Shown here: positions 6,005-38,249 of the stretch, in pieces
Numbering within the stretch: the stretch's first letter is position 1
How the letters are laid out: every line of letters starts with the position of its first letter
Assembly (NCBI GenBank): GCA_014382585.1
Contig: JACNJL010000055.1
Coordinates: 1 to 39,485 of the forward strand
Origin: Limisphaerales bacterium
GTDB taxonomy: Bacteria > Verrucomicrobiota > Verrucomicrobiia > Limisphaerales > UBA1100
Direction: 5' to 3'
Length of the DNA stretch: 39,485 bases
Notes under the pieces: model-generated
What the model was told of the DNA's origin: nothing
The model's input: the letters and a program-made list of their open reading frames with translations, nothing else
The model's database searches: none
Translations under genes and position numbers: made by a program

Positions 6005-6058
6005 GAGGGACGAGGTGGAACTCGTCCCTCCCGGGAGGGGCAAGTTCCACCTTGCCCC
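6005..6058. repeat. Paired hairpin element with complementary loops
   Basis: Hairpin one has arms GAGGGACGAG (6005-6014) and CTCGTCCCTC (6021-6030) with loop GTGGAA. Hairpin two has arms GGGGCAAG (6037-6044) and CTTGCCCC (6051-6058) with loop TTCCAC. The loops are mutually complementary and the element as a whole is a near-palindrome centred on CTCCCGGGAG. It probably also ends transcription of the FAD gene. Confidence 0.7.
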
Positions 6059-6179
6059 ATTTTATTTACTCGACGGGCTCAACAAACATTCCATTCCGCT
6101 CACACCCACAAACCGCCGCGTAGTGACGGGGCAATTATAGCCCCACACTTCAGTGTGGGGTAAATGCCCGTAAACACAA

Positions 6180-6319
6180 AGCACCCTGCAAGGGTGCGGT
6201 ATAGAGCCAACGTTTTACAGCGCCCCTACAGGGCGCGACATTGTGTTGCCGTTCTCCCCGGGCTAAAACCCGGGGCTACAATTGCTGAACCACTGCGTGG
6301 TCCAACCAGTGGTTTTTTC
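6180..6319 (+). repeat. 140-bp dispersed palindromic repeat, copy 2
   Basis: Same length and orientation as 3209-3348 with four substitutions, two of which fall in hairpin stems or loops. A CTCCTC-rich tract (6320-6360) follows it. Together the two copies bracket the FAD oxidoreductase gene. Confidence 0.85.
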
Positions 6320-6389
6320 TCTTCTCCTCCTCTCCTCCTCTCCTCCTCTCCTCCTTTCCCGATTAACTCTCCGCGCCTCCGCGTACGCA

Positions 6390-23336: not shown

Positions 23337-23347
23337 GGCGAGGGGGT

Positions 23348-23974
23348 TTACGGCTTCGGCTTCAGGGCCACGTTGCCGCGGATCTCGCGCAACGTGTTCC
23401 AGATCGCCTTGTCGCGTGGCTTCGGTGAGGCGCACACAAACAGATATTGATGCGGCGAACCGACAAATTTCAAGGTCTGCAGTTCAAAGTGCAGCGTCTG
23501 AAACTTGCGCGTGGCAAAGGGCTCGATCCAGTTCACCGTGGCCGTGAAGGACGCCACGTCGAACGACCCTTTCGGTTTCTTCTCAAAATGCTTCATCTTG
23601 CGCACGTTCACCGAGAACTTGCTGGTGTCCAACTTCGGGTTACCCAACCGCGCCTTGGAGAGGCCGGCGTAATAGGTAAACAATTCCTTCTGCAACACTT
23701 CAGACGTCAGCACGGGTTTGGCTTCCACGGCGAAGAGAAAGACGTACGTGAAAAAATCCGGCTGATCCGCCTTGAACATCCCCGGCGAGAAGAGAATTTC
23801 CTCAATACCCTTCAGGCCCAGATCCGGGGCAAACCCTTTCGGTGGGAGCGCAATGCGTTCGCCAAACCATTTTGGCGTGGGTTTCTTGATGACAAACTGC
23901 TGCTGCGCCAACGGCTGAGCCGCGGACAATGATACTCCGGCCAATGCCAGAACAAGAAGGATGGTTTTTTTCAT
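23348..23974 (-). CDS. Secreted hypothetical protein (208 aa)
   Basis: It has a signal peptide (MKKTILLVLALAGVSLSAAQ). The mature chain is rich in beta-like segments and aromatic residues (FFTYVFLFAVEAKPVLTSEV, SFTATVNWIEPFATRKFQTL, KFVGSPHQYLFVCASPKPRD). No family is recognised. It lies 15 nt after the P-loop gene and 11 nt before the C2-like gene, so it is part of the same operon and is expected to work outside the membrane in the same process. Confidence 0.75.
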   Translation of the reverse strand: MKKTILLVLALAGVSLSAAQPLAQQQFVIKKPTPKWFGERIALPPKGFAPDLGLKGIEEILFSPGMFKADQPDFFTYVFLFAVEAKPVLTSEVLQKELFTYYAGLSKARLGNPKLDTSKFSVNVRKMKHFEKKPKGSFDVASFTATVNWIEPFATRKFQTLHFELQTLKFVGSPHQYLFVCASPKPRDKAIWNTLREIRGNVALKPKP

Positions 23975-23989
23975 GAGTTTAATTTGTGT

Positions 23990-24556
23990 TTACGAGTTTA
24001 AAGCGGGTTGTTCCATTCGGCAGTATTTTCGAAATAAACGCAAGGCACGATCAAAACTACAGTGGGGATAGCGTTCCAGAATGTGGTTCATATCCAAATA
24101 GCTCGATCCGTATTCGGCACAATACGATTCCAGAGCGGCTTGGGTAAATTCGATCCGCTCCGCTTTCAAATGACGCGCCAGTTTTTCACGGTTCACATCC
24201 GTCCGCCACAGTTGAGTCGACCACCCGATTCGTAGCGGGGCAAACCATGCAGGGTGTAAGTGCGCGGCTAACAAGACTTGATTGCCGCGCATCAATAACC
24301 GGATCAATTTGTACAATTCACGGGGACGGATCAGATCATCCACCACCACCAATCCGTTTTCCACTGCCGGCACCGTCCAATCCAATCCGCCTCCGATCAC
24401 CCGCTCGATGGGCCGATTTTGAAAATCAGGATGATGTTGGATCAACCATTGGATCGCCGTCGATTTCCCGGAACCACTCACCCCAGTAAAGACCGCCAAT
24501 CGCGTCGACCGGAATGAGGCCGTTTTCAACTCAAGAAAATCATCAAAGCCGGTCAT
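23990..24556 (-). CDS. P-loop NTPase, cassette copy 1
   Basis: A 188-residue soluble protein. Walker A is GVSGSGKS (25-32) and Walker B-like NGLVVVDD (67-74); a conserved LAAH (His99) follows where a sensor residue could lie. The C-terminal half has conserved RTD..REKL.RHL (118-130), C.EY..SY.DMN.IL (146-160), RYP...SFD.AL..F...CRM. It aligns without gaps to the NTPase at 32796-33359 with about 105 of 181 identical residues. I do not know this family; it resembles no common ABC, kinase or AAA subtype by eye. Its start overlaps the stop of the two-TM membrane gene (ATGA). It is probably the ATP-using partner of that protein. Confidence 0.85.
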   Translation of the reverse strand: MTGFDDFLELKTASFRSTRLAVFTGVSGSGKSTAIQWLIQHHPDFQNRPIERVIGGGLDWTVPAVENGLVVVDDLIRPRELYKLIRLLMRGNQVLLAAHLHPAWFAPLRIGWSTQLWRTDVNREKLARHLKAERIEFTQAALESYCAEYGSSYLDMNHILERYPHCSFDRALRLFRKYCRMEQPALNS

Positions 24557-25641
24557 GTGATAAAAAAATCGGTGACCTCAATTGAATCGATCGGCCCTTT
24601 TAATTCGTGGTCGATGAATTCGTCGTGGAGCAACTGGACCTCCCAATAAACCGCCAGCCCGTGTGTTTTCGATATTTCCAACGGCGGATACAACGCCTTA
24701 AACATCGGCCCAAAATCCACCTCCCCGGGAAAATGATTCCCGATCTCCTGACGCTTCGGAATGTGACCCACTCGTTCACTATAAAGGATAATCGGGCGAA
24801 CCGGCTCCTCAAAGCTCACCGTGCGTCGGTTAGACCCGGAGCCTCGGATATATTGCCCCATCTCCATGTTACAAGCCACCACCCGCAAAGTCATATTCTT
24901 GAGATCAATTTCCGATTTCCCTGAAACCAGTTGTGAAATTGGCAGACAGGTACCCCGCGTGATGGCGGGAATCGGCCGAAGCGATACGTTGATGTACGAT
25001 CTAAAAAGAGAGTTTTTCTGCCACACCCAAAGGCAAACCATTAAAATAAAGAGGAAAATAATGAAAACCACTACACCTACAATCGAGTCATCAGAATCAT
25101 CAGAGCCAAGTTCCCAAATCAGCCAGCTCCCGCCAAGCCATCCAAGGGCACACAAGAGAGACATCAGGATGAAGCCCATTTTCCTTCCGGATGATAAAGC
25201 ATCAAAATTTTTGCCGAATTGAACTGTATCAAAAGGATCAATCACTTCTGTGGCATCACCGCCACGGCTACCAGACCGCGCGTCCACCAACTTGAATTGC
25301 GTCGTCCGGCTCACCTGAGAATCCTTTAAGATCCACGCATCATCCACTTTGAGATTCGCACGCAACACGATGGATGCATGGGTTCCTTCATAGGTGAAGC
25401 ATTCAAACGAATCGGTTGGAATCTCAAGTTCATATTCCGTGCGATCCACAACGAACTTGTCGGTGTACAGATTCGTCTCATCATTGACCGGACTTGAATC
25501 ATGCACCTCACTGGCCAGATCGAGAGAGAACTCGGCCTTTTTCCCCATCATCTTGGGGTCGGTGATTTTGAGGATGACGGTAAAATAATTCGGCCGAAAA
25601 GAAACATCCGGCCGAATTGATAGATGTAGATGGTCCGACAC
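24553..25641 (-). CDS. Two-TM, arrestin-like-flanked membrane protein, cassette copy 1
   Basis: A 362-residue protein. Residues 1-120 are beta-rich (FTVILKITDPKMMGKKAEFS, ELEIPTDSFECFTYEGTHAS, IVLRANLKVDDAWILKDSQV) and look like an arrestin N-type sandwich. TM helices lie at about 155-177 and 187-207, with an acidic loop (SDDSDD) between them. Residues 215-362 form a second beta-rich part (RVVACNMEMGQY, RTVSFEEPVRPIILYSE, HGLAVYWEVQLLHDEFIDHE). The start is GTG 25641. It is a paralog of the 33356-34471 product. Both fold assignments are inference. The base composition is visibly more AT-rich than copy 2. Confidence 0.8.
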   Translation of the reverse strand: MSDHLHLSIRPDVSFRPNYFTVILKITDPKMMGKKAEFSLDLASEVHDSSPVNDETNLYTDKFVVDRTEYELEIPTDSFECFTYEGTHASIVLRANLKVDDAWILKDSQVSRTTQFKLVDARSGSRGGDATEVIDPFDTVQFGKNFDALSSGRKMGFILMSLLCALGWLGGSWLIWELGSDDSDDSIVGVVVFIIFLFILMVCLWVWQKNSLFRSYINVSLRPIPAITRGTCLPISQLVSGKSEIDLKNMTLRVVACNMEMGQYIRGSGSNRRTVSFEEPVRPIILYSERVGHIPKRQEIGNHFPGEVDFGPMFKALYPPLEISKTHGLAVYWEVQLLHDEFIDHELKGPIDSIEVTDFFIT

Positions 25642-25693
25642 GTTGATTAATTAAATCATATAACGGTGGCGCTACACAACCCAACAACCCGTA

Positions 25694-26950
25694 TTATTTT
25701 CCCCCAATCGCATACAACGCCTCGTGGGTGCGCAGGTAAATGCGGCCGTTGCTGGGGGCCGGGGAGGCGGTGAGCCCTCCGGCGAGTTTGTTCTTGGCCA
25801 GCACCTTGAATTCCCGACCGGCCTGCAGCACGGTCACCATGCCGTCCCGCGAGGTAATATAGATCTTCCCATCCCCGGCCACCGGCGAGGCGCGGTAGGT
25901 TTGGCGATGAGGCGACTCGGAATAGAGTTGCTCGCCGCTCTTGGCATCGAGGCACGTCACCGTGCCGTTTTCACGGCAGAGATACACGAGGTTGTTGTAA
26001 ATCACCGGGGAAGGCACATCCGGCGTGCCGCGGTCAATGCGCCAGACCTCTCCCTTGCCGCCTTTGCCGATGAAGCCCTTGGCACCCGTCACACTGATGG
26101 CGGCCACGCCGCGATTCTTCGCCGAGGGAATGACCACTAAACCCTTATGCGCCACCGGCGAGGCCACAAAACGCAACGTCCGATTGTAGCTATCTTTGGG
26201 ATTCAGATCGCCCACCCGCCAGAGTTCTTTGCCGTCCATCGGATCATGCCCGATAGCGTAGTCGTTGCCATGCGTCACGATCTGAAATGTAGCCCCGTAC
26301 GCCACCGCCGTCGGGGAGGCGTAGGAATGCTCACATTCGGCCACACCGTCACTCTTGCGTTCCACCTTCCACACTTCCTTGCCGGTAAAGGTATCAATAC
26401 TCACCAGCAACGCCGCGTTGGAATGGATCAGCTGCAAATACAACCGACCCTGAAACAACAGCGGCGTGGAGTGAAAGCCGAAGCCCAGCCGGAATTTCCC
26501 GTAGCGTTCCTGCGCATTGAAACTCCAAGCCGGCGTCCCGTCATATTTCGTGGCCGCCACATCGCCGTTGCCGGTCATGGTGTAAATGTGCCGTGAATTT
26601 GCGCTTGGCGTAGGCGAGGCCAGCGTGCGTTCGCCCGAACCCGTTCCCTTGCCAGTCCCCACCGGCGTACGCCACAGTTCCTTGCCCTTGAGGTCCACCG
26701 CGATCAAGTACACCTGCTTGTCAATCTCCGCCATGGTAAACACCTTGCCGGCAAACACAATCGGCGTGGCGGAACTGGAGCCCTTGATCGGCAGTTTCCA
26801 GAGCACATTTTTGTCCTCGGCCCATTCGGTCGGGAGATTTTTCTCCACGCTTACGCCATCATGACGCGGCCCGCGCCAGTGCGGCCAATCGACCGCGGCG
26901 ACTTGGAAGACAACAGTAAACAGCAATGAAGTAACGAGTAGGTTTTTCAT
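25694..26950 (-). CDS. Exported PQQ-type beta-propeller protein
   Basis: A 418-residue protein. A signal peptide (MKNLLVTSLLFTVVFQVAAV) is followed by the diagnostic DWPHWRGPRHDGVS. Then come repeated propeller blades of the PQQ-like (BamB-type) repeat: GKVFTMAEIDKQVYLIAVDL, GRLYLQLIHSNAALLVSIDT, GKIYITSRDGMVTVLQAGRE. The C-terminus ends NGRIYLRTHEALYAIGG. The family is abundant in Planctomycetota and Verrucomicrobiota; most members lack a proven cofactor. ATG 26950 is preferred to TTG 26956 at the frame start. It lies 8 nt downstream of the DUF1501 stop and is the last gene of that operon before cassette copy 1. Confidence 0.85.
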   Translation of the reverse strand: MKNLLVTSLLFTVVFQVAAVDWPHWRGPRHDGVSVEKNLPTEWAEDKNVLWKLPIKGSSSATPIVFAGKVFTMAEIDKQVYLIAVDLKGKELWRTPVGTGKGTGSGERTLASPTPSANSRHIYTMTGNGDVAATKYDGTPAWSFNAQERYGKFRLGFGFHSTPLLFQGRLYLQLIHSNAALLVSIDTFTGKEVWKVERKSDGVAECEHSYASPTAVAYGATFQIVTHGNDYAIGHDPMDGKELWRVGDLNPKDSYNRTLRFVASPVAHKGLVVIPSAKNRGVAAISVTGAKGFIGKGGKGEVWRIDRGTPDVPSPVIYNNLVYLCRENGTVTCLDAKSGEQLYSESPHRQTYRASPVAGDGKIYITSRDGMVTVLQAGREFKVLAKNKLAGGLTASPAPSNGRIYLRTHEALYAIGGK

Positions 26951-26958
26951 ATTCAAAA

Positions 26959-28485
26959 TTAAGCGATGATGTCTTTCACCACATGTCCGTGCACATCGGT
27001 CAATCGAAAGTCGCGGCCCTGATAACGATAGGTCAATCGACGATGATCAATGCCGAGCTGGTGCAGGATGGTGGCGTTCAGGTCGTGGATGTGCATGGTA
27101 CCGGGGGTCCACTTGTGTTTGTCCGGCTGCGGCTTGAGCTGATTGCCGTCGGCATCGGCGATGTTGTAGCCGTAATCGTCGGTGCGTCCGTAGGTGATGC
27201 CCGGCTTGATGCCGCCGCCAGCCATCCAGATGCTGAAACAGCGCGGGTGATGATCACGCCCGTAATTATCCTTGCCCAAGCGCCCTTGACAATACGGCGT
27301 GCGGCCGAACTCCCCGCCCCACACCACGAGCGTGTCGTCGAGCATGCCGCGTTGGCGGAGATCCTTGATGAGACCGGCGCTCCCCTGATCAATGTCCTTA
27401 CATTGGTTGCCATGCTCGCCAGCGAGGTTGCCGTGGGCGTCCCAACCGCGATGGAAAATCTGAATGTTCCGCACCCCGCGCTCGGCCAATCGCCGCGCGT
27501 TCAAGCAGCAGGCCGCAAAGGTGCCCGGCGTGCGGGCGTCTTCGCCATAGAGCTTGAAGGTGCTGTCCGGTTCCTTGCTCAGATCCATCAGCTCCGGCAC
27601 GCTGCTTTGCATCCGGTACGCCATCTCGTGCTGTTGAATGCGCTCCAACGCGCCGGGATCGGACAACCGCTCGCCTTGTGCTCGGTTCAACGCCGCCAAG
27701 GTGTCCAGCTGCGCCCGGCGATCTTCGCGTGAGACGCCGGCAGGATTGTTCAGGTACAGCACCGGATCCCCTTCACTGCGCAACAGCACGCCCTGATGTT
27801 GTGAGGACATAAAGCCCGAACCCCATAGGCGTCCGAACAAGCTTTGCTCCGGGTGCTTGGTCCGCGCGTGCATCACGAGGTAGTTCGGCAAATTTTCATT
27901 GGCACTGCCCAGCCCGTAGCTCAACCAAGCGCCGAGGCTGGGTCGGCCGGGGATTTGGCTGCCGGACTGGATGTAGGTGATCGCCGGATCATGATTGATC
28001 GCCTCGGTAAACGCCGTGTGCACCACGCACAACTCCTTGGCCACCGTCGCCGTGTGCGGCAGCAGTTCGCTCACATGCACGCCGTCCGCGTTGTTGGCCT
28101 GTTTGGTAAATTTATATTTTGTCGGACACACCGGCAGTGTCTTTTGCCGCGAAGTCATGCCGGTGATGCGCTGGCCATCGCGCACTTCCTTCGGCAAATC
28201 CTTGCCGTACATCGCCTGCATCTTCGGCTTGTAATCCCACAGATCAAGATGACTCGGACCGCCGCTCATGAAGAGATAAATCACCCGCTTCGCCTTGGCC
28301 ACATGATGCAGTCCCCCATTCAGCTTGGCGTTCCCTTTGCCGGCTCCGAACATGTCCGGCCCCATCAACCCGGCCATCGCCGCCGTGCCCAATCCCAGCG
28401 CCGAGCGCCCGAACATTTGCCGACGCGTCATCATCAGTTGCGATTCGCGTTCGAATTTCTTAATCGAATTTTCAATCGTACTCAT
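26959..28485 (-). CDS. DUF1501 protein (Tat-exported, sulfatase-like)
   Basis: A 508-residue protein. The N-terminus MSTIENSIKKFERESQLMMT precedes RRQMFGRSALGLGTAAMAGL, a Tat-type leader with twin arginines. The core carries the DUF1501 hallmarks VIYLFMSGGPSHLDLWDYKP, HTAFTEAINHDPAITYIQSG, DTLVVWGGEFGRTPYCQG and NATILHQLGIDHRRLTYRY. DUF1501 proteins have an alkaline-phosphatase-like fold and are almost always encoded beside DUF1549/DUF1553 proteins. ATG 28485 is chosen because the upstream in-frame part is made from an inverted repeat (28474-28510) and intergenic sequence. It is separated from its natural partner by the inserted four-helix-bundle gene. Confidence 0.9.
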   Translation of the reverse strand: MSTIENSIKKFERESQLMMTRRQMFGRSALGLGTAAMAGLMGPDMFGAGKGNAKLNGGLHHVAKAKRVIYLFMSGGPSHLDLWDYKPKMQAMYGKDLPKEVRDGQRITGMTSRQKTLPVCPTKYKFTKQANNADGVHVSELLPHTATVAKELCVVHTAFTEAINHDPAITYIQSGSQIPGRPSLGAWLSYGLGSANENLPNYLVMHARTKHPEQSLFGRLWGSGFMSSQHQGVLLRSEGDPVLYLNNPAGVSREDRRAQLDTLAALNRAQGERLSDPGALERIQQHEMAYRMQSSVPELMDLSKEPDSTFKLYGEDARTPGTFAACCLNARRLAERGVRNIQIFHRGWDAHGNLAGEHGNQCKDIDQGSAGLIKDLRQRGMLDDTLVVWGGEFGRTPYCQGRLGKDNYGRDHHPRCFSIWMAGGGIKPGITYGRTDDYGYNIADADGNQLKPQPDKHKWTPGTMHIHDLNATILHQLGIDHRRLTYRYQGRDFRLTDVHGHVVKDIIA

Positions 28486-28510
28486 ACCTCGTACTCCTAC
28501 TCGTAATCGA
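28474..28510. repeat. 37-bp inverted repeat, left arm
   Basis: Its reverse complement matches 28898-28934 in 34 of 37 positions, with the first 19 positions identical. The arm covers the ATG AGT ACG ATT start of the DUF1501 gene and carries the tandem TACTCCTACTCG motif. Confidence 0.85.
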
Positions 28511-28519
28511 TTTCCCTCT

Positions 28520-28897
28520 TCACTTGTCAAACTTATCAACCAATTTCGTCAACATCGAAACAATGCGAACCAGCAGAATCTTTCCCTCTGCCACACGCTC
28601 CCCCGTCAAGGCCCGCTTGGAGACCATTACATCAAGGCACCCCGCGCACTCGGTTGCCGAGCCCCGGGCGTCATCAAAAAACCGGGCGCGTTGCTTCGTC
28701 GCGCGACGGCCGTTGCCCTCGGCGATGTTAAGCACGATGGAGGTGCTGGCGCGGTCAACTTGGTCGATGACCTCGCGGACACGCACATCTTTGCTTTCCT
28801 TCAATTCCGGAAATACATCCGTCAACCATGCGACGAATTTCAGGGCCAACTGGTAGACCTCCAGTTTTTCGTGTGAGAATTGTGGGTTTGAGGTCAT
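28520..28897 (-). CDS. Four-helix-bundle protein (23S rRNA IVP/S23 family), inserted
   Basis: A 125-residue helical protein. The N-terminus (HEKLEVYQLALKFVAWLTDV) and the centre (VIDQVDRASTSIVLNIAEGN), followed by ARFFDDARGSATECAGCLDV, match the four-helix-bundle family first described in 23S rRNA intervening sequences and elsewhere as stand-alone genes. The lengths agree (about 120 residues). Its molecular role is unclear; the family is linked to small mobile elements. ATG 28897 was chosen since the upstream in-frame part is made of the repeat arm. It is bracketed by a 37-bp inverted repeat and interrupts an otherwise tight DUF1549-DUF1501 pair. Confidence 0.9.
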   Translation of the reverse strand: MTSNPQFSHEKLEVYQLALKFVAWLTDVFPELKESKDVRVREVIDQVDRASTSIVLNIAEGNGRRATKQRARFFDDARGSATECAGCLDVMVSKRALTGERVAEGKILLVRIVSMLTKLVDKFDK

Positions 28898-28934
28898 TCG
28901 ATTACGAGTAGGAGTAGGAAGTACGAGTACGATT
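28898..28934. repeat. 37-bp inverted repeat, right arm
   Basis: Pairs with 28474-28510. It begins right after the four-helix-bundle start codon and runs to the stop codon region of the DUF1549/1553 gene. Confidence 0.85.
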
Positions 28935-31179
28935 AATACACCCACATCGCCACGTCACTGGCCAGCACCGTGATGACCACCTGCGCCCAGGCGGCGTGGT
29001 CGGCGGCGTTTAGTTTTTCATCGCGCGGCGAATCGCCGATCGACAGAAACGCTTTCGCGTCCTCCGCGTTGGCCGCGTAGCGGGTCTTTAATTTCCGGAA
29101 CAATCCCATGCACGCCGCGCGTTCCGCGGCGTTGGGCGCGCGACTGGCCACCAACTCGAAGAGCCGGTTTAGTCGACCCGCATCATCGGCGGCCTCCTGC
29201 ATCAATCGCTGTCCAAACTGCCGACCCATCTCCACGCGCTGGCGTTCGTTCAACAACGCGAGACTTTGCGTCGGCGTGCTGGTGCGGGAACGCTGCACAC
29301 AACTGCTTTCGCGACTGGGCGCGTCAAAGAGCGTCATCATCGGGTGCGGGCTGGTGCGTTTCCAGTAGACGTACAAACTGCGCCGGTACTGGCGGGCGTC
29401 CTTGTCCGACACATAACTCTTGGTGTTGCTGGCCGGATGCATCAGAGCTTTCCAGAGGCCACTCGGCTGGTACGGCTTTACGCCTTCGCCGCCCATAGTG
29501 TCATCGAGCAATCCGCTTGCCCACAGGGCCACATCGCGCAGGGCCTCGGCGTCCAGTCGATGCGCCGGCCCACGCGCCCACAGGCGGTTTTCCGGGTCCT
29601 TCACCGGCGGCCGATGCGCAGAGCTTTGCTTGAACGTGCGACTGGTCACCATCAGCTTAAGCATGCCTTTAAGATCCCACTTGCGATCCTGCAAATCCAC
29701 CGCCAACCAATCGAGCAGCTCCGGATGCGTCGGCTGTTCGCCCTGCAATCCGAAATCCGCCGGCGTACGCACCAGCCCCTGACCGAAGGTGCGCTGCCAA
29801 ATGCGGTTGACCAACACGCGCGAGACCAGCGGATGGCCGCGCGCGGTCAGCCATTGCGCCAAGCCGAGCCGGTTGCGCGGAGCGTCCTCGGGCAGCACCC
29901 CCATCACCGCAAACACATCCGGCTGCAGCGGTTCGCCCTTCGGCAGATTGTATTCCCCGCGATCCAGCAGCTGGGTCACCCGCGGCTTGGGCAAATCCCG
30001 CGCAACGAGCGTGGGTTTGAAGGTCTTTTTGAATTCCTCCAACTCCTTGGCCGCCGCGTCGCCTTGTTTCACCAGCGCCTCCCAGCGATCCCACGCCGCC
30101 ACATCGGCCGGTGCCTTGACGGTGGGCCCGTACTCGTACCGGTTGCCGTCCATCGACGGCTCGGCGGTGCTGTTGAAGAACGCCATCATCTGGTAATATT
30201 CCACCTGCGGAATCGGATCGTACTTGTGCGTGTGACAGCGCGCGCACACGAGGCTCATCCCCAGCAGCGACGTGCCCAGCGTTTCCACGCGGTCAAAATT
30301 ATTCTTCGCCTGAAACTCCGCCGGAATGGCGCCGCCCTCAGCCGTGGTGGGGTTCATGCGCACAAACCCAGTCGCCACCTGCTGCTCCAGCGTTGGCTCG
30401 GGCAAGAGATCGCCGGCCAGTTGCCAGATAAGAAATTCATCGAGCGGTTGATTACGGTTAAAGGCGCGCACCACCCAATCGCGGTAGGGATAAATGCCGC
30501 GCTTGTTGTCCAAATGCAGCCCGTGCGTGTCGCCGTAGCGCACGGCGTCCAGCCAGTACCGCGCCTGATGCTCGCCATACCGCGGACTGACCAACAAGGC
30601 ATCCACCAACCGCTCGTACGCAGCCGGTTTTTTGTCGGCCAAAAACTGTTTCAACAATGCCGGCTCCGGCGGCAGGCCGGTCAGCACCAAGGCCGCTCGT
30701 CGCGCCAATGTGGTCTTGTCCGCTTCCGGAGCGAAGCCGATGTCCTTGGCTTTTAATTGCCGCTCCACCAGGCCGTCGATGGCGTTTCCCTTCCAAGTGG
30801 GCCGCATTTTTTTCGGCGGCACAAAGGCCCAGTGCTTGGCGTACTGACCGCCTTCCTTCACCCATTGCGTGAGCAACGCGCGCTCGGCGGAGGTGAGCTG
30901 TTTCTCCGCGTCCTTGGGCGGCATTGGCTCCTCGGCATCGTGCAGGCGCACCAGAATCTCGCTTTCGCCAAGTTGCTTGGGATTGATGGCGGAATAGCCT
31001 CCGAGATCGCGCGTGGCGCCGGCAAACGAATCGAGCCGCACGAGGTCCTTCTTTTTGGTGTCCGGCCCGTGGCACACGAAACATTTATTGGAAAGGATGG
31101 GCAGGATCTCGCGCGAAAAATCCACCGCGAACAACTGGCACGCACAAATCAATGCAGCCAATAAAGAAACGCGTTTCAT
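28933..31179 (-). CDS. Secreted PSCyt1-DUF1549-DUF1553 protein
   Basis: A 748-residue protein. A signal peptide (MKRVSLLAALICACQLFAVD) is followed by a planctomycete cytochrome c (PSCyt1) with NKCFVCHGPD (heme CxxCH) and the AMxPPKD-like EEPMPPKDAE. DUF1549 follows (VDALLVSPRYGEHQARYWLD, YRDWVVRAFNRNQPLDEFLI, second heme-like CARCHTHKYDPIPQVEYY). DUF1553 is C-terminal (RNRLGLAQWLTARGHPLVSR, NRIWQRTFGQGLVRTPADFG). The family is an extracytoplasmic heme protein, functionally uncharacterised, paired with DUF1501. Length is a little short for the family because the DUF1549-1553 linker is compact. Its native downstream partner is DUF1501, now displaced by the inserted cassette. Confidence 0.92.
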   Translation of the reverse strand: MKRVSLLAALICACQLFAVDFSREILPILSNKCFVCHGPDTKKKDLVRLDSFAGATRDLGGYSAINPKQLGESEILVRLHDAEEPMPPKDAEKQLTSAERALLTQWVKEGGQYAKHWAFVPPKKMRPTWKGNAIDGLVERQLKAKDIGFAPEADKTTLARRAALVLTGLPPEPALLKQFLADKKPAAYERLVDALLVSPRYGEHQARYWLDAVRYGDTHGLHLDNKRGIYPYRDWVVRAFNRNQPLDEFLIWQLAGDLLPEPTLEQQVATGFVRMNPTTAEGGAIPAEFQAKNNFDRVETLGTSLLGMSLVCARCHTHKYDPIPQVEYYQMMAFFNSTAEPSMDGNRYEYGPTVKAPADVAAWDRWEALVKQGDAAAKELEEFKKTFKPTLVARDLPKPRVTQLLDRGEYNLPKGEPLQPDVFAVMGVLPEDAPRNRLGLAQWLTARGHPLVSRVLVNRIWQRTFGQGLVRTPADFGLQGEQPTHPELLDWLAVDLQDRKWDLKGMLKLMVTSRTFKQSSAHRPPVKDPENRLWARGPAHRLDAEALRDVALWASGLLDDTMGGEGVKPYQPSGLWKALMHPASNTKSYVSDKDARQYRRSLYVYWKRTSPHPMMTLFDAPSRESSCVQRSRTSTPTQSLALLNERQRVEMGRQFGQRLMQEAADDAGRLNRLFELVASRAPNAAERAACMGLFRKLKTRYAANAEDAKAFLSIGDSPRDEKLNAADHAAWAQVVITVLASDVAMWVY

Positions 31180-31256
31180 AGGGAAATCGTATCAGCCGAA
31201 CTTTGAATTTCCAGCCTTATTCGCTATGCGTTTGACGCTCAATGACTGATGCGTTG

Positions 31257-32660
31257 TTACCCGAACAATTTCAACACCGGTTTGCCGGGGGTGATGGGGC
31301 GGGTGATGCCGGTGTTGTTTTGCGGCTCGTTGAGGGGGATGTCCAGCGCGTGGTAAATGGTGGCGGCGAGTTCTTCGGGGCGCACGGGATCGCTGGTGAC
31401 GGTCGAGCCGGTCTTGTCGGACTTGCCGTACACGTGGCCGCCGGCAATGCCGCAACCGGCAATGATGGAGGAAAAACATTTCGGCCAATGCTGGCGGCCC
31501 GGGGGTTGTTGGGTGAGCACTTTTGGCGTGCGACCAAATTCACCGGTCACCACCACCAACGTGTTATCCATCATCCCGCGCTCTTTGAGATCCGTAAACA
31601 ATCCGGCCAGCGCCTGATCCAGGCGCGGCAGGCAGAAGCCCATTCCGTAGGAGCCATTCCCGAAGGCGTTGCCCATCCCCATATTGCCACCGTGCATATC
31701 CCAACTGCTACTGGGCGGGCCTCGCCGATCGCTCGGGGCTTGGCCAACCCAGCCGTTCACGGTCACAAAGCGCACGCCCGCTTCCACCATACGGCGGGCC
31801 AGTAAAAGATTTTGGCCGAGCGGATGCATCCCGTAACGCTCGCGCACTTTTAACGGCTCGCGTTTGAGATCAAACGCCTCGCGCCCTTCCGGTCGCGTCA
31901 TCGCGTCGTACGCTTTCTCGCGCAGATCGCTCCAGTCGGCGCCCTTGGCGTCTTTATCCAGCGCGTTACTCTCGATGCTGCCGAGAAGCTTGCGGCGTTG
32001 GGCGAGACGATCCGCATCGCCGAGATCATAAATTTTCGGCGCCGCAAAATTCGGCATCGCCGGATGATTATTCGCCGAACCCACAAATACCGGCGCATAT
32101 GCCGAGCCGAGGTAACCGCCCAGCGCAAGATTCGGTGCACAAAAAACCGGGCGACCCACGCATTTAATCAGCCAAGCGTTGGAGACAATATTACGCTTGC
32201 TCGGTTTGTGCTTCGCCACGAACGAGCCGAGGTACGGCTGATCATCCGGCACCCCTTGCTGCACGCGCTTGGCCGATTGGCCGCTCAACAAATTATGCAT
32301 CGCATCAAAGTGATTGCTGATCGCGCCCGGATGCGTCATCGAATTGATGAGTGTAAACTGGTCGGTAAGCTTCGCCAGCCGCGTGTGCATTTCGTTGAGA
32401 CGCATCCCCGGCACTTTGGTGGAGATCGGCTGGTACGGCCCGCGATATGCCTCCGGCGCGTTGGGTTTCATATCCCAAGTATCCACGTGGCTCGGGCCGC
32501 CGCACAACAACACGAAGATGCACCTCTTCTCCGCCGACACCGCGTTGCCCGATTTATCGAGTTTATCGCTGCCCATCACCGAGCCGGGCATCCCCATGCT
32601 GGCAACGCCCAAGCCGCCCGCAACGAGGGCCTGTCGACGGTTCATTTCAAATTCGCTCAT
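31257..32660 (-). CDS. Second DUF1501 protein
   Basis: A 467-residue protein. A Tat-like leader (MSEFEMNRRQALVAGGLGVA, twin Arg) opens it. Motifs include CIFVLLCGGPSHVDTWDMKP, NSMTHPGAISNHFDAMHNLL, EAGVRFVTVNGWVGQ, NTLVVVTGEFGRTPKVLTQQ and ATIYHALDIPL. It is paralogous to the DUF1501 at 26959 but of a different subgroup (shorter, with other motifs). It starts at ATG 32660 or ATG 32645. It lies 77 nt upstream of the DUF1549/1553 gene on the same strand, and 26 nt downstream of the truncated propeller tail, so it probably belonged to that operon. Confidence 0.9.
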   Translation of the reverse strand: MSEFEMNRRQALVAGGLGVASMGMPGSVMGSDKLDKSGNAVSAEKRCIFVLLCGGPSHVDTWDMKPNAPEAYRGPYQPISTKVPGMRLNEMHTRLAKLTDQFTLINSMTHPGAISNHFDAMHNLLSGQSAKRVQQGVPDDQPYLGSFVAKHKPSKRNIVSNAWLIKCVGRPVFCAPNLALGGYLGSAYAPVFVGSANNHPAMPNFAAPKIYDLGDADRLAQRRKLLGSIESNALDKDAKGADWSDLREKAYDAMTRPEGREAFDLKREPLKVRERYGMHPLGQNLLLARRMVEAGVRFVTVNGWVGQAPSDRRGPPSSSWDMHGGNMGMGNAFGNGSYGMGFCLPRLDQALAGLFTDLKERGMMDNTLVVVTGEFGRTPKVLTQQPPGRQHWPKCFSSIIAGCGIAGGHVYGKSDKTGSTVTSDPVRPEELAATIYHALDIPLNEPQNNTGITRPITPGKPVLKLFG

Positions 32661-32686
32661 TGTGTTTTGACGCTAAAAATTCCCAC

Positions 32687-32797
32687 TTATTCGCCAAGGC
32701 ACACCACCTCGCCCGCCTTGGTGCTAAGGCACAGCTTGCCGCTCGCGATGGCGAGGCCGTCCCACATCGGCGGCGGCACGGTGCCCTTGGCGCGGTC
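32687..32797 (-). pseudogene. C-terminal remnant of a PQQ-type propeller gene
   Basis: A minus frame of 36 codons plus TAA reads DRAKGTVPPPMWDGLAIASG then KLCLSTKAGEVVCLGE, the typical last blade of propeller proteins in this phylum (WDGLAIA.GKL.LST..G.VVCLG). It has no start and begins where the P-loop gene of cassette 2 stops (the TGA of that gene overlaps). It differs from the end of the intact propeller at 25694-26950. It is most simply the tail of a gene whose body was lost when cassette 2 or its flanks moved. Confidence 0.7.
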
Positions 32798-33359
32798 AGA
32801 CCGAGCGTGTGGGTTGCATCCGGCAATGGCGGCGGAAGCGGGCTAGGGCTTGGTCGAAACTGCGGTCGGGATAGCGCCCGAGGATGAGGTTCATGTCGAA
32901 ATAGCTCGCGGCATATTCGTCGCAGAAGGAGTCGATGGCCTCGCGCGTGTAGGGGATGGCGCGGGCGTCCAGGTGGCGCATGAGTTTTTCGCGGCTGGTG
33001 TCGGTGCGGAAGAGCCGCAGGCGCCAGCGCAGTCGCAACGGCTGGAACCATGCCCGATGCGGATGAGCCGCCGCCAGCACGGTGTTGCCGCGCGCCAGCA
33101 GCTGCGCCAGCCTCGGTAATTCGCGGGCGTGGACGATGTCATCAACGACTACGAGCCCATTGTGTTGCGCGGGCAATGTCCATTGGCCGCGGCGGCCTGC
33201 CACGTGGGTCACCGGTCGGCCGGCATAGGCGGGATGATGGGCGAGCAGCCAGCCGATGGCGGTGGATTTGCCCGAGCCGCTCACGCCGTTGAAGACGACC
33301 AGCCGAACGCCTTCCAGATCGGCATCGCGCAGGTTCAGGTAATCGTCAAACTCCGTCAT
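32796..33359 (-). CDS. P-loop NTPase, cassette copy 2
   Basis: A 187-residue protein. It shows the same landmarks at the same positions as copy 1: GVSGSGKS (25-32), NGLVVVDD (67-74), RTDTSREKLMRHL (118-130), CDEYAASYFDMNLIL (146-160), RYPDRSFDQAL, CRM. Differences cluster at residues 11-18 and 50-60, leaving the nucleotide site intact. ATG 33359 overlaps the membrane gene stop as ATGA; a longer in-frame start (33401) would only add residues inside that gene. It is visibly more GC-rich than copy 1, and its 3' end overlaps the truncated propeller tail. Function unknown. Confidence 0.85.
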   Translation of the reverse strand: MTEFDDYLNLRDADLEGVRLVVFNGVSGSGKSTAIGWLLAHHPAYAGRPVTHVAGRRGQWTLPAQHNGLVVVDDIVHARELPRLAQLLARGNTVLAAAHPHRAWFQPLRLRWRLRLFRTDTSREKLMRHLDARAIPYTREAIDSFCDEYAASYFDMNLILGRYPDRSFDQALARFRRHCRMQPTRSV

Positions 33360-34471
33360 GCCGCCAAAAAATCCTCGTAGCGGAACAGATCCACCGGGCA
33401 CACCAGTTCCTGGTCCACAAATTCTTTATGGATCAATTGCACCTCCCAATAGATTTCCAACCCGTGGCGGGAGGAGATGGTGTTGGGCGGATACAGCGCC
33501 GCGAACATGGGCTCAAACGCAATTTCGTCGTCGAAAAAACTCGAGACCGGCTGGCCGGCGGGGATGAGGCTCACCTTTTTTTCAAACAACTTCACCGCGC
33601 GCACCGGCTCCTCGAAGCTGACTGTGCGCTCCTGCGTGCCATGCCCTTCGCGGTACTGCCCCTTCTCCATGTTGCAAGCCACCACGCGCAGGATGATGTT
33701 CTCCAAGTCCACCCGCGACTTGCCCTCGATGAGTTCCGACACACGCAGGCGTGTGGAGCGGTTGATGCTGGGCAGCCTGCGGAGTTGTAAAGTCATATAC
33801 TTTCCCAACTGGCGCTGCATGGCCCACCACATCACCACCGCAATCACCACGTCGACCGCCAGCGCGGCCAGAATCGGAGGCCCGCCTTCATCATCCGAGC
33901 CATCGAAGTGATAGATAATCGTATTGCTTTGGGACGCTCCCTGATCATGGATCCCCACGAGTGTGTTCGCGCCAAGGACGACCACGCCGATGACGACGAT
34001 GAGGAGGGTTTGGATTTGGCTAAACCACGGCACCGCCTTCAGGTTCTTGACGAACTCGAACGCGTCATCCGGATCGATCATCCGGCTGGCATTGCCCTTG
34101 ACCCGAGGTTTGTTGCCCGCCAGCTGGAGCACCACCGACTGCTCCACCTTGGTATCGAAAACCCATGCATCATCCACCACCAACTTGGCCGACACCACGA
34201 TGGAAATATTCTGCCCAGAGTAGGTGTATGTGCGATGCTGGCCGATCGGAATTTTCTGCTTATGCCCGGAGCCGCTTACTCGGAATGACGTGCCAAAGAG
34301 TTCCTTCGAACCGTTCACCGGCCTCACCTCCGAGACACGGCACGTCGCCACCAGTTGCAACTTCGCCTCCTTGCCCTGCATTTTGGGATCGCGAAACGCT
34401 ATGTCCACCCACACATGATCCGGATCCCTGCCGACATCGTAAGTGACCTTTAAACTTGCTCCATCCGCCAT
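33356..34471 (-). CDS. Two-TM, arrestin-like-flanked membrane protein, cassette copy 2
   Basis: A 371-residue protein. Beta-rich N-part (1-120: FRDPKMQGKEAKLQLVATCR, TYTYSGQNISIVVSAKLVVD, DAWVFDTKVEQSVVLQLA), TM helices at about 152-173 and 199-218 with an acidic loop between them (GSDDEGG), and a beta-rich C-part (RVVACNMEKGQY, RTVSFEEPVRAVKL, HGLEIYWEVQLIHKEFVDQE). These match copy 1 block for block. ATG 34471 is chosen over ATG 34510 because it aligns with the N-terminus of copy 1 and has GGGAG upstream. The arrestin-like label is a fold guess from strand pattern, not from a search. Confidence 0.8.
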   Translation of the reverse strand: MADGASLKVTYDVGRDPDHVWVDIAFRDPKMQGKEAKLQLVATCRVSEVRPVNGSKELFGTSFRVSGSGHKQKIPIGQHRTYTYSGQNISIVVSAKLVVDDAWVFDTKVEQSVVLQLAGNKPRVKGNASRMIDPDDAFEFVKNLKAVPWFSQIQTLLIVVIGVVVLGANTLVGIHDQGASQSNTIIYHFDGSDDEGGPPILAALAVDVVIAVVMWWAMQRQLGKYMTLQLRRLPSINRSTRLRVSELIEGKSRVDLENIILRVVACNMEKGQYREGHGTQERTVSFEEPVRAVKLFEKKVSLIPAGQPVSSFFDDEIAFEPMFAALYPPNTISSRHGLEIYWEVQLIHKEFVDQELVCPVDLFRYEDFLAA

Positions 34472-34681
34472 CCCGTTCTCCCGTCTTCCCAGACGTTTGC
34501 AGCCCTCCATGAGCTGAACAGGAAATACACAACATTTAATCCCGTGACAAGTTACAAAAACTCACGAATTTTGGAGCGGGCAAGGCTTCAGGAATGATTC
34601 CTGCCATGAACTCCAGCGGCCAGCCAGCGGTGGATTTCCTGTTGAAGAAACCTGCGCCAGACGCTTTCATCAAGGCGCACC

Positions 34682-36763
34682 ATGAAAACACTTCATTCGC
34701 TCCTTGCCGTTCTTTTGTTTGCCTGTCTTTCCCCCACCTCCCAAGCCGCCCTGCGGGCCGGGGCGCACACGGCGGATGCCACGCCAACGGTTTTACCGGT
34801 GCATGTGAATGGCGGAATGCGGCAGCGGGAATTGGGCGAAGTGGGCAGCCGCATCAAAGTACGGGCAATTGTGCTGGCCGACGGCACGACGACGCTGGCC
34901 ATCGTCGTCGTGGATAGTTGCATGATGACGCGCGACTTCCTCGATGACGCCAAGAAAGCGGCGAGCGAGCGCACCGGCATCCGCGCCGACCGGATGTTCA
35001 TCAGCGCCACACACACGCACAGCGCTCCCGCCAGCATGGGCTGCCTCGGCACGGACGCGGATCCGCGCTATCCGCTGTTGCTGCGGCGGAAAATCATGGA
35101 GGCCATCGTTGGCGCGCAAAAAAATCTCGAGCCGGCGCAGGTGGGCGCGACGGTGTTTGATGCGAATGAATTTACCGCGCTGCGCCGCTGGGTGCTCCGC
35201 CCCGATCGCGTGCGCATGGATCCCTTTGGCAATCCCACCGTGCGCGCGACGATGCATGCGGGCAATAACTGGGACGATGTCACCGGTGAAAGCGGCCCGG
35301 AAGATCCGGATTTTTCGCTGATCAGTTTTCAATCGCTTCAAGGCCGGCCGATTGCGGTGCTCAGTAATTTTTCGATGCATTACTTCAGTGGCGTGAAAGG
35401 GCTGAACGCCGATTATTTTGGGATGTTTAACGATCGTCTGGAGCTGGCCCTCACGCTGCCGCAAAACGAATCGCTGCATCCGCCTTTTGTCAGCGCGTTG
35501 GGACACGGCTGCAGCGGTGACATTTGGCGGCGCGATTATACCAAACGGCCGCTGGATAATCCGAAGATCGAGGACTACACCGATGCGCTGGTGAAGAAGA
35601 CGCTCGCTGCCTATCAGAAAATCAAATACGACCGCACGGCCACGCTGGCTATGGCGCAGACGGATCTGCCGCTGAAGTTTCGCGCGCCGGACGCGCAACT
35701 GCTCGAGTGGGCACGCGGCATCGTCGCCCAGACCGAGGGCCTGCCCAAAACACAGCCGGAGATTTATGCGCGCGAACAAATCTTCCTGCACGAACGCCCC
35801 GAGGCCACGCTTTGCCTGCAAGCCATTCGCATCGGCGACATCGGCCTCACGGGCATTCCCAACGAGGTTTATGCCCTGACCGGGCTCAAGCAAAAGGCTG
35901 TGAGTCCGCTGAAGACGACCATCACTTTCGATCTTGCCAACGGCTCCGAAGGCTACATCCCCCCGCCCGAACAACATGCGCTCGGCGGTTACAACACCTG
36001 GGCCGCGCGCACCGCCGGTCTCGAGTCCAGCGCCGAACCGCGCATCGCCGAGGCGTGCATTCAGTTGCTCGAGAAAGTGGCCGGCAAACCGCGCCGCACA
36101 CCCGTCACTCCGAGAGGCCCCGCCGCCGAGACGATCGCCCAACTCAAGCCCGCCGCGTGGTGGCGCCTTGATGAATTCAATGGCCCGCGTGCGGCGGATG
36201 AAATGAACCGGCACGACGGCATTTACGAAACGCAAGTGGCCTACCAACTTGCCGGTCCCCATTCGGAAAAATTCACGCCCGGCCAAATCAACCGCGCCGC
36301 CCATTTCGTTGGCCAACGCATGCAGGCCCGCCTGCCCAAGCTGGGCACCAGCTACAGTGTCTCGCTGTGGTTCTGGAACGGCATGCCCAATGATTCGCGC
36401 GCCGTGCTTGGTTGGATGTTCAGCCGCGGCCGCAATCACGCCCTCGGCACCGGCGACTCCCTCGGCCTCAACGCCAAGGGCCACCTCATTTTTCGTAGCG
36501 GCCAAAAAACCCACACCGGCAAAGCCCCCGCCACCCGCTGGCAATGGCACCACGCCGTTCTCGTCCGCGATGGCGACCTCGTCCGCGCGTACCTCGACGG
36601 CAAACTCCAAATCGAAGCGAAGGCAGCGGCGTTGCTCCCAGTGGAGACAATCTTCCTCGGCGGCCGCCATGACAACGAGTCCAACTGGGAAGGCCGGCTG
36701 GACGAAGCAGCCGTGTTTGACCGGGCGTTGACTGCGGCTGAAGTACGGACGCTAACTAATTAA
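34682..36763 (+). CDS. Secreted neutral ceramidase-like/LamG fusion
   Basis: A 693-residue protein. A signal peptide (MKTLHSLLAVLLFACLSPTS) precedes a region like the N-terminal domain of neutral/alkaline non-lysosomal ceramidase (about 24-470). Visible blocks are VVDSCMMTRDFLDDAKKAAS, FISATHTHSAPASMGC (metal-binding His), SNFSMHYFSG and GHGCSGDIWRRDY at the position of the serine-containing active-site loop, and the EVYALTGLKQK region. In bacterial ceramidases that loop reads NxGDxSPN, so this is a divergent member. From about residue 490 a LamG/concanavalin-like domain follows (AAWWRLDEFNGPRAADEMNR, SVSLWFWNGM, AYLDGKLQIEA, WEGRLDEAAVFDRAL). It may hydrolyse an amide- or sugar-containing polymer; substrate unknown. 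It is divergent from cassette 2. Confidence 0.8.
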   Translation: MKTLHSLLAVLLFACLSPTSQAALRAGAHTADATPTVLPVHVNGGMRQRELGEVGSRIKVRAIVLADGTTTLAIVVVDSCMMTRDFLDDAKKAASERTGIRADRMFISATHTHSAPASMGCLGTDADPRYPLLLRRKIMEAIVGAQKNLEPAQVGATVFDANEFTALRRWVLRPDRVRMDPFGNPTVRATMHAGNNWDDVTGESGPEDPDFSLISFQSLQGRPIAVLSNFSMHYFSGVKGLNADYFGMFNDRLELALTLPQNESLHPPFVSALGHGCSGDIWRRDYTKRPLDNPKIEDYTDALVKKTLAAYQKIKYDRTATLAMAQTDLPLKFRAPDAQLLEWARGIVAQTEGLPKTQPEIYAREQIFLHERPEATLCLQAIRIGDIGLTGIPNEVYALTGLKQKAVSPLKTTITFDLANGSEGYIPPPEQHALGGYNTWAARTAGLESSAEPRIAEACIQLLEKVAGKPRRTPVTPRGPAAETIAQLKPAAWWRLDEFNGPRAADEMNRHDGIYETQVAYQLAGPHSEKFTPGQINRAAHFVGQRMQARLPKLGTSYSVSLWFWNGMPNDSRAVLGWMFSRGRNHALGTGDSLGLNAKGHLIFRSGQKTHTGKAPATRWQWHHAVLVRDGDLVRAYLDGKLQIEAKAAALLPVETIFLGGRHDNESNWEGRLDEAAVFDRALTAAEVRTLTN

Positions 36764-36824
36764 CCACAGAGGCCCAGAGAAACCTTTTTCAGAAAAATCT
36801 CGGTGTTCTCTGTGCCTCTGTGGT
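36763..36824. repeat. Dispersed 18-bp inverted repeat, bidirectional terminator
   Basis: Arms ACCACAGAGGCCCAGAGA (36763-36780) and TCTCTGTGCCTCTGTGGT (36807-36824) differ at one position. They lie in the 67-nt gap between two convergent genes and are of the CCACAGAGGCACAGAGA type that recurs in intergenic DNA of this phylum. Confidence 0.65.
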
Positions 36825-36830
36825 GAAAAA

Positions 36831-38249
36831 TCAATCCCGCACCGGCCCGGGGTGATTGATCTTGGTGGCACCGCGTTCGGTGCCCGGCTGAGTCCCGTGT
36901 TTCCAGCCCTTGAACCGTTTGCCATCGGGGGTTTGCCGGTTGGGCGTGGGATTTTTGGGAACGGTGTCGCCGGTATCTTCAGCCCAGCGATCAAGGAGTT
37001 GGGTGAGTTGGCTGATCTCCGCCGCGTATTTCTTATCGGCGGCGAGGTTACGCAATTGATGAGGATCCTTGCTCAGATCGTATAGCTCCAGCGCGGGGCG
37101 AGGTTTCAGGAAAATATCGAGCTGGTTTTTGTTGAGCTTGCCCGCGGCGTGCATCTTCCAGAGTTCGGCCCCGGCGGGATGGCTGGGGTCGCCTTCCATG
37201 CAGAGGTTTTGGAGATGCGGATAAGCGTTGCGGATGAGCACCCAATCCTTCCAACGCACCATGCGTTCGTGGGCCTGATAGACATGCCAGTTGTGCTCGG
37301 CAAACACGTAATCGCGCACGGTGGCCTTGGGGTTCTCAAGAATGGGCGCGAAGCTCACACCTTGAATGCGTTTGTCTTTCTTAGCACCGGCCAGATCGAG
37401 AATGGTCGCGCTGATGTCGATGCTGCTAATCAGCGACTGCGTCTCGGCGGGCGCGATGGTGCCGGGACGCGCAATGAGGAACGGCGTGCGAATACCGCTG
37501 TCGTACAGACGCGTTTTGCTGCGCGGAAACGGTCGGCCATTGTCGGTCATGTAAATAATGTAGGTGTCCTTTTCGATGCCCTGCCGTTTCAGCTCGGCGC
37601 GCAGTTGGCCCATGTAATAATCCGTGCGGCTCACCTCATGCATGTACTCGGCGAGATCCTTGCGCGTCACTGGGCCGTCGTAGAGATACGGTGGCACCTC
37701 GATGTCCTCGGGCTTGTAGAGCGGCGCCTTGTCGTTGAGCGCCCAACCGCGGTGAGCATCGCTGGAAGCGAACCAGAAAAAGAACGGTTGATCCTTCGGC
37801 CGCTCCTGCAACATTGGCACCCAGTCCGCCGACTTGCTCGGACCTTTGCCACCGGACACCTTATCGAACCCACGATTCACCGCCTTGCCCATATGATGTT
37901 TGCCCGAGAGCGCCGTGTAATATCCAGCCGCCTGCAATGCCTCGGGAAACACCGGCTGATCAGCCGGCATGGACGTGTGCAGCTCCGATGCCCCGGTGTT
38001 ATGCGGATACCGCCCAGTGATCAAACTGCACCGACTCGGCGAACAACTGCTGATGCTCAAGTACGCCCCATGAAACAACATCCCTTCCTTCGCCATCCGA
38101 TCGAGGTGCGGCGTCTTCGCCACCTTGCTCCCGTAACAGCCAAGGTCATCCCAGGAAATATCGTCGGTGATAAAGAGAATAAAATTGGGCTTATCCGCTG
38201 CTTGAGCAGGAAAAAAGGCGGCCACTAAAAGAGATAAAATTAGTTTCAT
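36831..38249 (-). CDS. Secreted type I sulfatase
   Basis: A 472-residue sulfatase with signal peptide (MKLILSLLVAAFFPAQA). Metal ligands NFILFITDD (Asp29-30) precede the formylglycine site CSPSR (69-73), followed by SLITGRYP; Cys69 is the residue converted to formylglycine by the maturing enzyme, which is not in the window. GKHHMG supplies the Lys/His pair. The C-terminal DLSKDPHQLRNLAADKKY is typical of the S1 sulfatase family. It removes sulfate esters from polysaccharides outside the cytoplasm. ATG 38249 is 3 nt after the stop of the Sel1 lipoprotein gene, so they are cotranscribed. Substrate class cannot be told by eye. Confidence 0.93.
   Translation of the reverse strand: MKLILSLLVAAFFPAQAADKPNFILFITDDISWDDLGCYGSKVAKTPHLDRMAKEGMLFHGAYLSISSCSPSRCSLITGRYPHNTGASELHTSMPADQPVFPEALQAAGYYTALSGKHHMGKAVNRGFDKVSGGKGPSKSADWVPMLQERPKDQPFFFWFASSDAHRGWALNDKAPLYKPEDIEVPPYLYDGPVTRKDLAEYMHEVSRTDYYMGQLRAELKRQGIEKDTYIIYMTDNGRPFPRSKTRLYDSGIRTPFLIARPGTIAPAETQSLISSIDISATILDLAGAKKDKRIQGVSFAPILENPKATVRDYVFAEHNWHVYQAHERMVRWKDWVLIRNAYPHLQNLCMEGDPSHPAGAELWKMHAAGKLNKNQLDIFLKPRPALELYDLSKDPHQLRNLAADKKYAAEISQLTQLLDRWAEDTGDTVPKNPTPNRQTPDGKRFKGWKHGTQPGTERGATKINHPGPVRD

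Follow-up and report, generated by a model that had tools for sequence, protein, structure and literature searches.

A short propeller tail upstream of a DUF1501 gene in a Limisphaerales genome is probably the leftover of a gene whose place an unrelated gene pair now takes

Organization of the locus

The analysed DNA (hereafter the window, 39,485 nucleotides) makes up the entire contig C55 in a Limisphaerales draft genome (G000; 3.7 Mb in 70 contigs) that has 75 DUF1501 matches. The minus strand carries, in order, X2, P-loop2, the remnant of a propeller gene, DUF1501-B and a PSCyt1/DUF1549/DUF1553 gene, followed by a 23S_rRNA_IVP gene, DUF1501-A, a 420-residue propeller, X1 and P-loop1. The X/P-loop pair, which is unnamed, combines a putative membrane-type protein with a small P-loop ATPase, and stands in the window twice, as cassettes 1 and 2. 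The features are as follows.

23990-25641, minus strand: cassette 1, composed of X1 (24553-25641) and P-loop1 (23990-24556); X is 37% and P-loop 58% identical to cassette 2
25694-26956, minus strand: intact 420-residue propeller adjoining copy 1 and excluded as the origin of the tail (Pfam PQQ_2; 17 bits against the tail)
26959-28539, minus strand: DUF1501-A
28520-28945, minus strand: 23S_rRNA_IVP gene
28933-31179, minus strand: PSCyt1/DUF1549/DUF1553 gene in the same run of genes (Pfam)
31257-32660, minus strand: DUF1501-B, probably once downstream of the propeller (Pfam PF07394, 261.6 bits; orthologs 87-95% in five congeners)
32687-32779, minus strand: probable propeller remnant, comprising the final 30 codons plus stop of a ~1,025-residue PQQ-type gene (26/30 identity, tblastn, DNA similarity)
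32780-32795, minus strand: junction spacer separating the remnant from the P-loop2 stop, dissimilar to the propeller and to congener DNA
32796-33401, minus strand: P-loop2 of cassette 2, an ORF with Walker A motif GVSGSGKST, weak AAA/STAND matches below cut-off and a P-loop fold model
33356-34510, minus strand: X2 of cassette 2, an ORF of ~371-384 residues that stays below cut-off in Pfam, NCBIfam and PADLOC
34511-34660, no strand: non-coding left edge of the replaced stretch, dissimilar to congeners; similarity to G005 resumes at 34661

P-loop2 more likely starts at 33359, which gives a protein of 187 residues. The divergent 693-residue gene beyond the left edge, a hydrolase-like gene and some other neighbours are without a Pfam call. 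In the non-coding DNA upstream of X2, an inverted repeat with 14-nt arms (93%) set 99 nt apart is found at 34517-34643.

The 23S_rRNA_IVP (four-helix bundle) gene is flanked, in the region 28440-28980, by a long imperfect inverted repeat, and the strand folds with a z of -5.3. It sits between the DUF1549/DUF1553 gene and DUF1501-A, is absent between these two genes in G001 and G017, and lies at the edge of a block resembling genus g5. Two 23S_rRNA_IVP genes were found in the genome, the other of which (L164 on contig C46, around 6058-6333) likewise sits between DUF1553 and DUF1501 genes (2/2).

The tail matches the end of a 1,025-residue propeller

Translation of 32797-32687 on the minus strand gives 36 residues and then a stop, all of which the first-pass annotation had assigned to a propeller C-terminus. 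The homology to a propeller C-terminus holds, but does not extend to the first six residues (DRAKGT). Similarity to the DNA of the congeners G001, G005 and G006 sets in at 32779, and thus the remnant proper comprises 30 codons plus stop (32687-32779), with the translation VPPPMWDGLAIASGKLCLSTKAGEVVCLGE-stop. The order described earlier, in which the tail begins where the P-loop gene ends and a DUF1501 gene follows, is borne out: the P-loop2 stop codon occupies 32798-32796, the remnant begins ~17 nt beyond P-loop2, and the DUF1501-B start codon (32660) lies 26 nt past the remnant.

The closest counterpart is a propeller of the sister genome G001, which ends VPPPMWDGLAIAGGKLYLTTKAGEVLCLGE and matches PQQ_2 (PF13360, BamB-like PQQ repeat) at 125 bits; 26 of the 30 remnant residues are identical to its C-terminus (81 bits). 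A tblastn search of the entire G000 genome with this propeller returned a match at 32690-32791 (E 2.0e-10, 79% identity) that covers residues 992-1025 of 1025. The best other match in G000 is 39% identical, indicating that the assembly has no full copy at any other site. The remnant thus corresponds to the same last 30 residues and takes the same position upstream of DUF1501-B as the G001 gene, but amounts to ~3% of it, without start, signal peptide or repeats. Searched with a cut-off of E 1, Pfam gave no match on the 36 residues, as expected for such a short piece, and hence no propeller repeats. As a candidate source, the end of the neighbouring 420-residue propeller was rejected, with 17 bits (E 0.51) against 81 bits for the G001 gene.

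The pN/pS of the tail against the intact congeners is 0.17-0.33 over 30 codons, compared to ~1 expected for sequence long free of constraint, and most of its divergence from the congeners may predate the gene loss. As in degraded pseudogenes left by deletion, the 3' end is recognisable, the 5' part is gone, and an intact ortholog occupies the same place in a relative. The tail is most likely non-functional debris.

State of the propeller locus among sister genomes

The comparison covered seven members of the genus (G000-G006), all draft assemblies, among which G003 is 59% complete. DUF1501-B has orthologs in five of the six congeners, at 87-95% protein identity. The first-pass annotation had suggested looking for the intact propeller in a relative lacking cassette 2; G001 has one, of 1,025 residues with the same C-terminus as the tail, directly upstream of its DUF1501-B ortholog (L040, 5048-8131). 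The propeller of G002 is also intact (1,025 residues, 93% identical), and its contig ends right after the gene, so that DUF1501-B is beyond view. In G006, the contig edge cuts the gene, and the last 562 propeller residues stand upstream of DUF1501-B. The G005 copy is split into five tblastn pieces in shifting frames, and these frame breaks could be sequencing errors. The body is missing, with no cassette, from both G004, where the first ~31 codons are fused to the last five, and G003, where a degraded C-terminal end adjoins the gene that in G001 stands one gene further upstream. The gap is simply closed in G004, but in G000 an unrelated gene pair occupies it: beyond the 30 retained codons lie 1.88 kb of other sequence (32780-34660), reaching the upstream region of the 693-residue gene. 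Altogether, the propeller is intact in two genomes (G001 and G002), open to the contig edge in one (G006), frame-broken in one (G005) and bodiless in three (G000, G003 and G004).

G004 matches both flanks of the G000 locus, at 85% over 34740-38191 and 91% over 31255-32703, and shares nothing in between. Outside the genus, none of the eight DUF1501-B orthologs examined has the tail in the 170 bases upstream, suggesting that the propeller/DUF1501-B neighbourhood is genus-specific as far as seen. The DUF1501-B tree leaves G000, G001, G004, G005 and G006 mutually unresolved and places G003 outside, with G015; the independence of the losses therefore rests on their breakpoints rather than on the tree. 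With the body gone at different breakpoints in G003 and G004, and the frame broken in G005, propeller loss is recurrent in the genus.

G003 presents itself as a mosaic: its propeller tail and spacer (L044, 9150-9320) are nearly identical to those of G002, with one synonymous and five non-synonymous differences in 30 codons, yet its DUF1501-B groups with G015.

Cassette 2 and related X/P-loop pairs

Cassette 2 was found in G000 alone; the pair is absent from G001-G005, and X2 matches one fragment in G006. No genome showed an intermediate with both the cassette and an intact propeller, or a deletion lacking the cassette within this lineage. A search of 320 genomes of the order found no close donor of the 1.88 kb: the best non-self match is 66% over 322 bases, and most of the 105 genomes with any match align over only ~40 bases at the Walker A site. 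Pfam, NCBIfam and PADLOC gave no name for X2 or P-loop2 over cut-off. Against the PADLOC models of anti-phage defence, the best E-values are 0.046-0.061 for P-loop2 and X2 and 5.7e-5 for P-loop1, the latter over the P-loop region only, and none of the three was assigned to such a system. The predicted structure of P-loop2 adopts a P-loop fold (mean pLDDT 84.9), and in a fold search it had 75 hits within E 0.001, the top ones being clamp-loader and other AAA ATPases. The TM-scores are low (0.30-0.51 of the query for the best 50 of 75) and so give no closer identity. The low-confidence model of X2 (pLDDT 55.5) has two beta-rich halves around two long helices and is too poor for a fold search. 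Promoter and terminator scans stayed at chance level.

Complete or partial X/P-loop pairs are present in G000 (twice), G010, G014, G016, G017, G006 (a truncated X only) and genomes of one other family (f2, genus g6); the module was found in only two families of the order. Searching the 320 genomes of the order with the P-loop alignment picked out 28 at a threshold of E 0.001, of which 11 had E-values below 1e-20; the remainder comprises two with fragments (G186 and G192) and 15 that match weakly, mostly over the P-loop motif. The X alignment, searched against 387 sampled genomes of the phylum, matched G000 alone. Compared to cassette 1 and the pairs in G010, G014, G016, G017 and G020, cassette 2 has the same gene order and conserved motifs, but shares 35-58% identity and lies in a different neighbourhood.

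In four g6 genomes (G020, G178, G186 and G194), whole or fragmentary pairs adjoin one particular ORF, which we take to be a methionine-synthase-like gene; in G186 (L139) and G194 (L138), only shortened pieces of the pair are left beside it. In G006 (L072, 326-1234), an X gene is cut short after the end of the 420-residue propeller, with no P-loop gene next to it, which is a second case of X/P-loop decay.

Cassette 1 is conserved at the corresponding site in G010, G014, G016 and G017. It belongs to a block (23347-28455) with DUF1501-A, the 420-residue propeller and a 208-residue gene, which resembles DNA of genus g5: 88% to G017 over 5,100 bases and 90% to G010 over 2,909 bases. Its 25694-28449 part is 73% similar to the congener G001, where no cassette is present, and G004 and G005 lack most of the block at this site. 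By these similarities, the block likely came by horizontal exchange. A recent duplication of cassette 1 was considered as the origin of cassette 2 and rejected, given their 37% (X) and 58% (P-loop) identity and the trees, which separate the copies: a long branch splits the two copies of the window in the P-loop tree, and the X tree, rooted at its midpoint, places X2 with the other family.

Proposed history and alternative explanations

Comparison with G001 makes it highly probable that 32687-32779 is the leftover end of a ~1,025-codon propeller gene, the body of which was exchanged for 1.88 kb carrying X2 and P-loop2. The ancestor would have had the G001 arrangement, with the PQQ-repeat propeller ~26 nt upstream of DUF1501-B. 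In the G000 lineage, the stretch from ~34660, just upstream of the divergent 693-residue gene, to 32779 would then have been exchanged, either by a single recombination swap or by an earlier deletion of the propeller and a later arrival of the gene pair. The scrap may have been retained because the deletion did not reach the start region of DUF1501-B, on which selection acts. X2 and P-loop2, now upstream on the same strand, may supply the transcription of DUF1501-B.

A swap in which the cassette recombined into an intact propeller and removed its body in one step, as the first-pass annotation had proposed, is possible, though we consider it somewhat less than an even chance. The cassette does fill exactly the place of the body, with 17 nt from the P-loop2 stop to the remnant and both flanks syntenic; that it caused the loss is what the sister genomes call into question. 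The body is missing without a cassette in G003 and G004, which therefore did not require one, and the G005 copy is broken in place, so the loss may precede the cassette and a prior deletion is at least as likely. Traces of insertion are also wanting. No word of at least 8 bases, direct or inverted, is shared between 34480-34760 and 32680-32830, and no target-site duplication was found; the cassette ends have only short imperfect repeats. By eye, 32796-34510 contains no recombinase- or transposase-like ORF, only X2 and P-loop2 reading as genes, and neither protein matches recombinase families. Cassette 2 thus differs from a transposon or integron cassette in lacking target duplication, terminal repeats and a recombinase gene. 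A mobile element was likewise rejected: terminal repeats are missing, P-loop2 has no match in phage or plasmid records, and a scan of the genome_contigs collection with the P-loop alignment gave no relative. In other genomes, the pair occupies fixed chromosomal places. The contrast once drawn with copy 1, said to lie beside an intact propeller, falls away, since that 420-residue propeller is a different gene with its own G001 ortholog and the two cassettes are distant; lying in a g5-like block, cassette 1 is irrelevant to the mechanism of loss.

The other explanations fare worse. The site upstream of DUF1501-B might be an exchange site, where propeller and X/P-loop are swapped in and out beside DUF1501/DUF1549 runs and the edge facing DUF1501 is preserved at each swap; we regard this as unlikely, but if true, the X/P-loop pair would be a functional alternative to the propeller partner. 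That the tail is a mini-gene, or a leader coupling translation into DUF1501-B, is very improbable: the frame is open with possible GTG and ATG starts, and a tail is kept near DUF1501-B in all three bodiless genomes, but the kept length varies from 30 codons in G000 to a longer degraded end in G003 and five codons in G004, and the eight out-of-genus orthologs have none within 170 bases upstream. Equally hard to credit is an assembly chimera with the cassette misjoined between the flanks: cassette 2 is known from a single draft assembly, but both flanks neighbour this same locus in G004, and both cassette genes, P-loop2 and X2, are complete and end naturally. Although the tail has only 30 residues and no Pfam match, a chance resemblance to a propeller end is practically negligible, with E 2e-10 in a whole-genome search at a syntenic position, and is refuted by G001.

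On the best reading of these sequences, the genus is losing the propeller gene, and cassette 2 would occupy the vacated space. The leftover tail is a case of ordinary gene loss, and a warning for readers of such sequence that a short propeller-like end adjoining DUF1501 is debris rather than a gene. Overall, the locus captures gene loss midway, with intact, contig-cut, frame-broken, body-deleted and body-replaced states among seven sister genomes.
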